In this document: piece after piece, positions 28,849-32,636 of the stretch
Position numbering within the stretch: position 1 is the first letter of the stretch
Layout of the letters: the number at the start of each line of letters is the position of its first letter
Assembly: GCA_016234485.1 (NCBI GenBank)
Contig: JACRBL010000034.1
Coordinates: 1-64,000 of the forward strand
Direction of reading: 5' to 3'
From: Chloroflexota bacterium
Lineage (GTDB): Bacteria; Chloroflexota; Anaerolineae; Anaerolineales; Villigracilaceae
DNA length: 64,000 nucleotides
Program-made: the position numbers and the translations under genes
Notes under the pieces: generated by a model
The model's input: the letters and a program-made list of their open reading frames with translations, nothing else
What the model was told of the DNA's origin: nothing
Database searches by the model: none

Positions 28849-28880
28849 AGGCAGTCACTCAAAAGAGTGACTGTTTTCTT
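28849..28880 (+). terminator. uvrA terminator
   Basis: GGCAGTCACTC, AAAA loop, GAGTGACTG, then TTTTCTTATT. Confidence 0.9.
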
Positions 28881-28902: not shown

Positions 28903-30201
28903 ATGCATAACCACGAACCCAAAAAATACAAATGTCCATTCTGTCAGATCATCGAAGGCGCGCACGATTCGATGGAAGACACCGACGTCATCTATCAGGA
29001 CGCGGATGTAACCGCTTTCCTCAGCAAGAGCCGCTGGGAAAAGAATCCCTTCGATGTTCTGATCGTCCCCAACCGTCACATCGAGAACCTGTACGATCTG
29101 CCGGACGAGCTCGCGCCCGCGCTTCAGAAGGCGACGCGCGAGGTGGCGATCGCTCTCAAGGACCTCACCCGCTGTAAGGGAATCTCGACGCGTCAACACA
29201 ACGAACCCGCGGGGGATCAGGACGTCTGGCATTATCACATCCACGTCACGCCGCGCTATGAAGACGATCGTTTCTACGAGAATCTCAAAGTCCCCTTCCC
29301 TGAATCGGAACGGATGGCGGTTGCGGAACGTTTGAGGGAGTGTTTCAACCCTCAACCTGCGCCACAAATGGAGACGCATCCGCCCGCTCCGCTCGCGATG
29401 GAAGCGCCCCTGCCGCAGGGAGAGAACCTGCCCGAAGATCATGAGGAAATTGACATGAACAGACTTGGAAGTTCGTACACATATCGCCCGCTCAATACGC
29501 GGCGCAAGAAAGCGCCCATTGGGCCGCGCATCTTTGGGTTGTTAGCCATTCTGGTGATCGGCCTCGCGCTTTACTTGATCATCTCTTCGCTGATCGGACC
29601 GGGCAAACCCGTCAGCAATATGTTCGCCACCGATACGGCCACGCCCACCGTCACGTTCACGCCCACCTCCACTGCCACCGCCACGGCCACATCCACCGAG
29701 ACAATGACGCCCACCATCACCAACACGCCCACGCCGAGTGCGCCGTTCCAATACACCATTGTGGAAGGCGACAATCTCGTAACCATCGCGCAGAAATTCA
29801 ACCTGGCCGAGGACGGCATCCCGCTCATCCTGCAACTGAACCCGACGATTGCGCTGAACCTGGGCGTAATCTTCCCCGGGCAGACGATCTTCATTCCCAA
29901 CCCCGATATGCACCTGCCGACTGCCACGTCCATTCCCGCGGACGTGCCGCGCGGCACGCTTCTCACCTATCTCGTTCTGCCGGGCGATACGCTGGCTGGC
30001 ATCGCGGCCAAGTTCAACAGCACCGTGGAAGCCATCATGGAAGCCAACGACATCACCGACGCCAACGCCTTGAGCGCTTACGTGGAACTGCAGATTCCCG
30101 TCAACATGGTGACAGCCACCGCCACGCGTCCGCCCACGTCCACGGCGCCGGCGGGCACGCCCAGCGCGACATCCACGCCGACAGCGACCAATACGCCATA
30201 A
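28903..30201 (+). CDS. HIT-domain protein fused to a membrane segment and two LysM domains
   Basis: 432 residues. Residues 1-150 are a histidine-triad nucleotide-binding domain (CPFCQIIEGAH, then HYHIHVTPR near 110). A linker (HPPAPLAMEAPLPQGEN) leads to one membrane helix (about 208-229, IFGLLAILVIGLALYLIIS), a Thr-rich linker and two LysM domains (about 282-333 YTIVEGDNLVTIAQKFNL; about 354-401 YLVLPGDTLAGIAAKFNS). This puts HIT inside and peptidoglycan binding outside. An in-frame ATG at 29455 with GAGGAAATTGAC before it could start the membrane-LysM part alone, so this may be two genes merged. No sequencing-error sign can be judged here. Confidence 0.85.
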   Translation: MHNHEPKKYKCPFCQIIEGAHDSMEDTDVIYQDADVTAFLSKSRWEKNPFDVLIVPNRHIENLYDLPDELAPALQKATREVAIALKDLTRCKGISTRQHNEPAGDQDVWHYHIHVTPRYEDDRFYENLKVPFPESERMAVAERLRECFNPQPAPQMETHPPAPLAMEAPLPQGENLPEDHEEIDMNRLGSSYTYRPLNTRRKKAPIGPRIFGLLAILVIGLALYLIISSLIGPGKPVSNMFATDTATPTVTFTPTSTATATATSTETMTPTITNTPTPSAPFQYTIVEGDNLVTIAQKFNLAEDGIPLILQLNPTIALNLGVIFPGQTIFIPNPDMHLPTATSIPADVPRGTLLTYLVLPGDTLAGIAAKFNSTVEAIMEANDITDANALSAYVELQIPVNMVTATATRPPTSTAPAGTPSATSTPTATNTP

Positions 30202-30229: not shown

Positions 30230-30260
30230 GTTCCATCCGCAGTTTAACTGCGGATGGAAC
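30230..30260. repeat. 31-base near-perfect palindrome
   Basis: GTTCCATCCGCAGTT and its exact complement with a 1-base centre. It lies after the HIT-LysM gene with no U-tract, so it is either a weak terminator or a palindromic repeat. The rest of the gap to rpsT holds no gene I can support. Confidence 0.7.
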
Positions 30261-30756: not shown

Positions 30757-30850
30757 CCCCACCCCCAGCCCCCTTCCTGCCCCCCCAAATGCGCCTGAAG
30801 TTCGGCGCATTTGGGGGAGGGTGTCCCGAAGGGACGGGTGGGGGTTGAGA
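30757..30850. repeat. C/G-tract hairpin repeat
   Basis: CCCCACCCCCAGCCCCC and CCCCCCCAAATGCGCC on one side; GGCGCATTTGGGGGAGG and GGGTGGGGGTTG on the other, with a small inner hairpin (GTCCCGAAGGGAC). The same kind of element is inserted in cbiQ (56260-56314). Confidence 0.8.
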
Positions 30851-30863: not shown

Positions 30864-32636
30864 ATGAACGAACAACTCCAGCAAATCATCGAACAAAAAA
30901 TAAAAGCGTATTGCGAAGCCAACGCGATTCCGCTGGCGGCGCTCAAGTGGATGCCCATCCCGTTTAGCGGCGAGTGGGGCATGTCCACGTCGTTTTTTCA
31001 GACCGCGGCGGACGAGATCCGCGCGGGGGGCGCGAAGAAACCTGTCCCTGCGCGGGCGCAGGAGATTGCAGACGCGCTCAAAGGTCAGATGGGAGGCGTG
31101 GAGGGAGTCAGCCGCGTGGACGCGGTGAAGGGCTATCTTAACGTCTACTTTGAGACGGCCGCATACGCGCGTCGAGTGGCGTCTGACGCCATCGCTTCGC
31201 GCGCGGACTTTGGGCGGGGCGCGCCAAAGGGACAGCGTCTCATGGTGGAATTTTCCCAGCCCAACACACACAAGGCCTTCCACGTGGGGCATCTGCGTTC
31301 CGCGATCCTCGGCGACTCGCTCGCGCGTATTTTGGATTTCGCGGGCTACGACGTGGTGCGCGCCAACTACCCTGGCGACATGGGACTGCACGTGATCCGC
31401 TGGCTGTGGGCGTACATGAAATATCACAACGGCGAAGAACCTGAAGCGGACATCACCAACTGGATGGGCATGGTCTACTCGGACGCGACGAAGCGGCTGG
31501 AGGAGAATCCCGAGCTCGAAGCCGAGGTGCGCGCGCTCTACGCCCGCTGGGACAGGCGCGACCCCGACGTGGTGGCTCTGTGGGAAAAGACGCGCCAGTG
31601 GTCGCTGGTCGGCTTTGACCAGATGTACGACCTGCTGGATATCAAATTTCACAAATATTATTTCAACAGCGAAGAAGAACAACCTGGCAAAGAGATCGTG
31701 GCCGAATTGGTGAAGCGCGGCATCGCAATTGACGAGCGGCCTGAGGGTCCCGTCATCGTGAAGTTGGACGACCTGCTCGGCAACAAAAACGAGAAGTTCC
31801 GCGTGCTGGTGGTCTTGCGCTCAGACGGCACCGCGCTCTACGCCACTGAAGACTTGTCGCTGGTTCTGCACAAGTTCCGCGATTACCCCGACATGGTGAA
31901 ATCCATTTATGTGGTGGACGTGCGCCAATCGTTGCATTTTACGCAGGTGTTCAAAACGCTTGAACTGGCGGGCTACGAGGACGCCAAGAAGTGCGCGCAC
32001 GTGGCCTACGAGTTGGTGACCCTGCCTGGCAACGTAGTTATGTCTTCGCGCGAGGGGACGGTGGTGCTTTTGGAGAACCTGATTCGCGAGGCCATCGAAC
32101 GCGCGAAAGAGGAAGCGAAGAAAAAGAATCCCAACCTGGGCGAAGAGCAGTTGAACGCGGTCGCAAAAGCGGTTGGATTGGGCGCGCTGAAATATCCATT
32201 GCTGGCGCGCGAGAACGCCAAGATCGTCACCTTCGACTGGCAGTCCGCGCTGGATTTCAACGGGCAGGCCGCGCCGTATATTCAGTACGCGCATGTGCGG
32301 TGCAATTCGATTCTGCGGAAAGCAGGCGTTGAAACGTTGAACGTTAAACGTTCAACGTTTGATTACGCTCTTGACCCCTCCGAGATCGAGTTGATCGAGG
32401 CGATTTCACGGTTCCCTGCGGAGGTGCAGAGGGCCGCGGAGGAGTACAAGCCGCTGGTGATCGCGAGCCACGGATATGAGGTCGCCAGGACGTTCGCGTC
32501 GTTCTACGACAAATGCCCCGTCATTCAGGCGGAGGAAAACGTCCGCGCGGCGCGGCTGGAATTGGTGATGGCCGCGAAGCAAACGATGGCGAATGCGTTA
32601 TCCCTGTTGGGCATTCAGGCGCCCGAGGTCATGTAA
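30864..32636 (+). CDS. argS: arginyl-tRNA synthetase
   Basis: 590 residues, class I. It has the N-terminal Add1 domain (SRVDAVKGYLNVYF), the HIGH-type signature HKAFHVGHLRSAILGD, the KMSK-region equivalent NVVMSSREGTVVLLENLI and a C-terminal DALR anticodon-binding domain (APYIQYAHVRCNSILRKAG). It charges tRNA-Arg. Oddity: residues about 488-500 (VETLNVKRSTFDY) are encoded by an AACGTT-word palindrome that interrupts the DALR domain after its first helix. Confidence 0.96.
   Translation: MNEQLQQIIEQKIKAYCEANAIPLAALKWMPIPFSGEWGMSTSFFQTAADEIRAGGAKKPVPARAQEIADALKGQMGGVEGVSRVDAVKGYLNVYFETAAYARRVASDAIASRADFGRGAPKGQRLMVEFSQPNTHKAFHVGHLRSAILGDSLARILDFAGYDVVRANYPGDMGLHVIRWLWAYMKYHNGEEPEADITNWMGMVYSDATKRLEENPELEAEVRALYARWDRRDPDVVALWEKTRQWSLVGFDQMYDLLDIKFHKYYFNSEEEQPGKEIVAELVKRGIAIDERPEGPVIVKLDDLLGNKNEKFRVLVVLRSDGTALYATEDLSLVLHKFRDYPDMVKSIYVVDVRQSLHFTQVFKTLELAGYEDAKKCAHVAYELVTLPGNVVMSSREGTVVLLENLIREAIERAKEEAKKKNPNLGEEQLNAVAKAVGLGALKYPLLARENAKIVTFDWQSALDFNGQAAPYIQYAHVRCNSILRKAGVETLNVKRSTFDYALDPSEIELIEAISRFPAEVQRAAEEYKPLVIASHGYEVARTFASFYDKCPVIQAEENVRAARLELVMAAKQTMANALSLLGIQAPEVM
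32327..32364 (+). repeat. AACGTT-word palindrome inserted in frame in argS
   Basis: GAAACGTTGAACGTTAAACG followed by TTCAACGTTTGA forms an almost perfect palindrome of AACGTT words. It adds 10-12 residues to ArgS. Confidence 0.75.

Follow-up and report, generated by a model that had tools for sequence, protein, structure and literature searches.

The hydrolases of the HinT and FHIT type belong to the HIT proteins (PF01230), with which the protein considered here shares the HIT fold region and the HxHxH motif. MccH-type HIT hydrolases are encoded by stand-alone genes scattered over bacteria and hydrolyse phosphoramidates, and stand-alone HIT hydrolases can protect against microcin C (PMC7157772); they are possible stand-alone counterparts of the HIT domain described below. 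In Mycoplasma hominis, HinT is co-expressed with the surface membrane complex P80/P60 and binds it (PMC1173108). There, as in our case, a HIT protein is tied to a membrane protein of the cell surface; however, HinT and P80/P60 are separate polypeptides of one operon, whereas here a single fused reading frame is found. Neither of the two cases demonstrates that the fusion considered here is functional. A further system to be compared is the single-helix LysM membrane protein of the uvrA-lysM-rpsT-argS locus in this family, whose orthologues L006, L007, and L008 are 67-70% identical to the LysM part of our protein and have the same placement relative to uvrA and rpsT; the latter differs from them by its HIT extension and by being without the usual upstream promoter-like motif.

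The window (the whole 64,000-nucleotide stretch of Chloroflexota DNA that was analysed) contains a continuous reading frame on the forward strand at positions 28903-30201, from ATG to TAA, which, according to the ORF list and a check of the translation, encodes 432 amino acids in the order HIT domain, linker, one membrane helix, Thr/Pro-rich stretch, and two LysM domains. The HIT domain (residues 1-152, 28903-29358) is recognized by PF01230 at residues 26-120 (E 2.4e-12; 47.8 bits against a curated cut-off of 21.5); in an alignment of four sequences its MxNH start is conserved among the relatives, and the intact histidine triad HYHIH (residues 110-114, 29230-29244) has H110, H112, and H114 invariant. 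Its best sequence match in the PDB is the HIT protein 1y23 (E 6.2e-17). PF01476 finds two LysM stretches (E 2.3e-17; 63.1 bits against a cut-off of 20.9), the best of which, at residues 356-395, is the second LysM domain (29968-30087), while the first one is placed approximately at 29746-29895 from Pfam and from the modelled strands and helices of residues 282-331. The AlphaFold model shows a helix at residues 209-231 (29527-29595), a membrane helix by its composition, preceded by RRKK, so that an N-in orientation is expected; across most of linker residues 155-203 the pLDDT is below 50. Thus, the original prediction of a HIT domain, a membrane helix and two LysM domains in one reading frame holds. 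Judging by the families, the HIT half is a putative nucleotide hydrolase or transferase and the LysM half is predicted to bind peptidoglycan; neither half scores above the cut-off of any NCBIfam model, those of the named HIT subfamilies included. Since the HIT domain at the N-terminus would be cytosolic and the LysM domains would lie outside, the topology of the fusion appears feasible.

The rarity of this combination, also foreseen from the DNA, was confirmed. Among the matches listed for 61 relatives and for 400 genomes of the order, where a match over the full length would head the list, residues 1-432 were matched only by the window's own genome (G000), and the same genome was the only one of 396 from the class at a cut-off of E 1e-48, a threshold that weak fusions in other members of the class might escape; the order and class sets are even samples of larger groups, and they share genomes with one another and with the set of 61. 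A widespread fusion with a conserved linker was looked for in the same 61, 400, and 396 genomes and did not occur, and a widespread or ancient fusion is rejected, as the full-length match is confined to the window's genome among the genomes searched. In the literature searched, no paper combining the HIT domain, LysM and fusion was found.

In the related genomes, the LysM protein is encoded by a gene of its own between uvrA and rpsT-argS, and the start codon of the orthologous genes corresponds to the internal ATG at 29455, which delimits an ancestral LysM gene encoding 248 amino acids (29455-30201, forward strand). The internal start with a fair ribosome site, suspected from the beginning, is therefore real as a feature of the locus: GAGGA (29443-29447), located 7 nt upstream, is a retained Shine-Dalgarno-like site whose equivalent in the sister genomes is AAGGA/AGGAAA. 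The window LysM is thus a syntenic orthologue with a conserved start. UvrA stands beside LysM in 23 of the 28 related loci (L006-L034, with the HIT-only L030 left out), and none of the 28 has a HIT match within the fetched stretches. Besides the window's own genome, seven genomes of the genus were compared, and six of them have the gene; in the remaining one (G006, 88% complete) no LysM gene was found among the matches listed. Comparison with the sister genome G001 by our own Nei-Gojobori script gives dN 0.24 and dS 0.84, that is, purifying selection. On the window branch, LysM shows a mild excess of change with two of three outgroups (Tajima chi-square 0.75, 4.26, and 5.16), which is compatible with relaxed and with new constraint alike. 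At this locus G003 has a LysM protein with a C-terminal CAP domain instead (L010:1051-2241, minus strand), and in several other relatives open frames near 400 amino acids occur at the LysM gene.

As to the HIT half, its relatives are nearly always free-standing genes of about 150 codons. Of the best 80 of 248 relatives, in a scan of named genomes, 76 end within 25 amino acids of the end of the HIT domain; one extends 31 residues past it, two are HIT-GNAT proteins (L106, L154), one is a HIT-methyltransferase (L102), and none is joined to LysM. With LysM alone in the relatives and HIT nearly always on its own, the original idea of two once separate genes is borne out, and the comparison of the locus proposed with it showed LysM standing separately at this place and HIT separately elsewhere. 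The HIT-GNAT and HIT-methyltransferase proteins fall in the same HIT clade and, like our protein, have an N-terminal HIT and a second domain; unlike LysM, their partners are, by family, cytosolic enzymes. The pairing of HIT with GNAT recalls the two types of enzyme by which microcin C is detoxified. The HIT-GNAT proteins come from one Chloroflexi and one Bacillota genome, and the HIT-methyltransferase from a Defluviitaleaceae genome.

A search of 152 genomes of the family, the window's own included, found HIT relatives with E about 1e-43 or lower at seven loci outside the window's genome; within the genus, only G001 has one besides the window's genome, on another contig than its LysM locus. 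In the HIT tree (85 rows kept from 92 loci plus the window, short and duplicate rows being dropped), the HIT sequence of the window forms a group (100/99) with those of a Myxococcales bin and of two genomes that belong to the order but to other families, apart from the HIT of G001. This placement with distant genomes, away from the sister's HIT, suggests that the gene was horizontally gained; its exact position is unsure because some branches around it are long. The same grouping would also be expected if gross misassembly or contamination had put a foreign HIT gene here. However, window positions 25179-46849 (about 21 kb) and the G001 contig are collinear but for the HIT gene, and a piece of 0.5 kb within synteny is not what a chimeric join would produce; moreover, the third-position GC of the HIT part (0.69, against 0.74-0.82 in the flanking genes) is slightly lower but not strikingly foreign. 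With synteny on both sides, we consider a gross artifact very improbable.

The linker has two parts. The 48 bases preceding 29455 align to the leaders of the LysM genes in the sister genomes, as none of 1000 shuffles did as well for L006 or for L009; the alignment is weaker for L007 (5/1000, p 0.005), and for L011 there is no homology (126/1000, p 0.126). The alignment thus indicates that about the last 14 linker residues before Met184 are the ancestral LysM leader turned coding (29411-29454, now read as about LPQGENLPEDHEEID). The preceding junction part (residues 153 to about 169, 29359-29410) occupies the place of TTCAGGTAGAAT in the related LysM genes; these about 17 residues resemble nothing else in the window beyond the level of shuffled sequences.

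The linker had at first been read as translated hairpin-repeat DNA, whose insertion would have removed the stop codon between the two genes. There are intergenic hairpins nearby, e.g., at 30782-30817, that made this thinkable, but the linker is unlike the nearby hairpin element, it has no other significant copy in its own genome (best E 0.078 over 30 bases), no inverted repeat is listed within it, and its folding is not unusual (z-score -0.79). Hence, the hairpin-repeat origin of the linker is rejected, and repeat insertion as the mechanism of the fusion, with leader homology found instead of a repeat, is hardly credible. As for the removed stop codon, the part of the idea that survives is the loss of a barrier between the genes: this barrier includes the leader and promoter segment of LysM, and not the HIT stop codon alone.

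An open frame through the 32 linker codons has a chance of about 0.44 for that composition, multiplied by 1/3 for the frame, which is not low; the openness alone is thus no evidence of selection. In the other two frames stops are located at 29442-29444 and 29456-29458, just where LysM has its ribosome site and its ATG. This is a common operon layout, and it raises the question whether two overlapping or coupled cistrons had their frames joined by an indel of the assembly, the more so as the fusion is known from one draft genome of 68 contigs and the junction from its assembly alone. In that case, however, the HIT protein would still need a tail of about 28-32 residues, absent from its relatives; besides, the alignment of the leader with that of the sister contains no more than small gaps, and the flanking synteny is intact. 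We hold such a base-level error to be unlikely, though worth bearing in mind.

The upstream regions of the related LysM genes contain, 20-165 bases ahead of the gene, the 12-base TTCAGGTAGAAT, exact in 20 of the 28 loci and with at most two mismatches in 25, while in trials with 370 bases of shuffled sequence a site within two mismatches turned up in 0.7%. This conserved motif is probably a promoter. In the window it was not found within two mismatches between uvrA and 29454, where the best site has four. In some members of the genus the leader CCTGCCCGA, which follows the motif, is conserved as well. In the nearest sister, G001, the LysM frame can be followed upstream from the ATG through 19 open codons before it meets a stop, which is the TAG of TAGAAT in the motif, so that the loss of the promoter and the opening of the frame can be one event; in the other sisters this frame closes at other places. 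When the DNA of residues 153-169 was placed by hand, ungapped and post hoc, on the sister promoter, 14 of 28 bases were identical (p 0.0036), which would mean slow decay of the promoter and not its replacement; no signal appeared when gaps were allowed (p 0.6-1.0).

Taken together, these data are probably best explained as follows. A free-standing HIT gene, probably of horizontal origin, would have come between uvrA and the conserved gene of the LysM membrane protein, taken the position of the LysM promoter and joined by chance, in frame, what remained of the 5' leader, so that the old leader would now encode the latter half of the linker, which is disordered. With the promoter motif gone, transcription of LysM must enter from the HIT side, and it could start upstream of the HIT part or within it. 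Two products are to be expected in this case. One is the 432-residue fusion, whose HIT enzyme would stay in the cytosol, held by the membrane helix to the outside, wall-binding LysM part; the other is the free LysM protein, initiated at ATG 29455 from the retained ribosome site. The preservation of both the GAGGA and this ATG makes the fusion and the free protein both plausible. The expression of the former is uncertain, as a sigma-70 scan for a HIT promoter gave nothing above chance and no clear ribosome site for the HIT start was seen in the sequence inspected upstream of it. Between uvrA and the HIT start there is a stem-loop (28852-28873, inverted repeat I4) followed by TTTTCTTATT, a probable uvrA terminator on the forward strand; the scan lists its stem on the minus strand only, and the T-run is on the plus strand.

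The fusion most likely has no role beyond the sum of its parts, the HIT domain being a tolerated N-terminal passenger, and a recent, tolerated event is the likeliest status of the gene. It could be argued that the fusion was selected, a HIT hydrolase being usefully tethered at the membrane and the wall: both halves look intact, other fusions exist within the same HIT clade, and in M. hominis HinT is bound to a surface membrane complex and co-expressed with it (PMC1173108). However, among the genomes searched the fusion occurs in one only, its linker is modelled with low confidence and appears disordered, and the mild excess of change in LysM suits relaxed constraint equally well. We give selection a low probability, and a slightly lower one to the more specific picture of HIT-LysM as a transmembrane protein in use, with a nucleotide phosphoramidase on the cytosolic side of the membrane beneath a wall-bound anchor, e.g., destroying incoming peptide-nucleotide compounds at their entry, and with free LysM made from the retained start within the same mRNA.

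The fusion is a one-off in the genomes searched, not a new kind of system, and a functional link between HIT and the wall should not be inferred from one draft genome. Its value is that of a readable case of the birth of a fusion gene, in which an incoming gene at a promoter site would have turned a 5' leader into linker sequence, and the former ribosome site was kept, due to which the original LysM product could still be made.

Several features of the neighborhood deserve mention. Right after the fusion gene lies a perfect 15-base inverted repeat (30230-30260), a candidate terminator without a clear T-run. Downstream of rpsT there is a C/G-rich intergenic hairpin element (30761-30845) with a perfect 14-base stem, unrelated to the linker by alignment. 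Finally, ArgS (30864-32636) is only 54% identical to that of G001, while the identity is 93% for UvrA and 74-91% for many of the neighbors, which may reflect displacement of the argS gene in either the window genome or G001.
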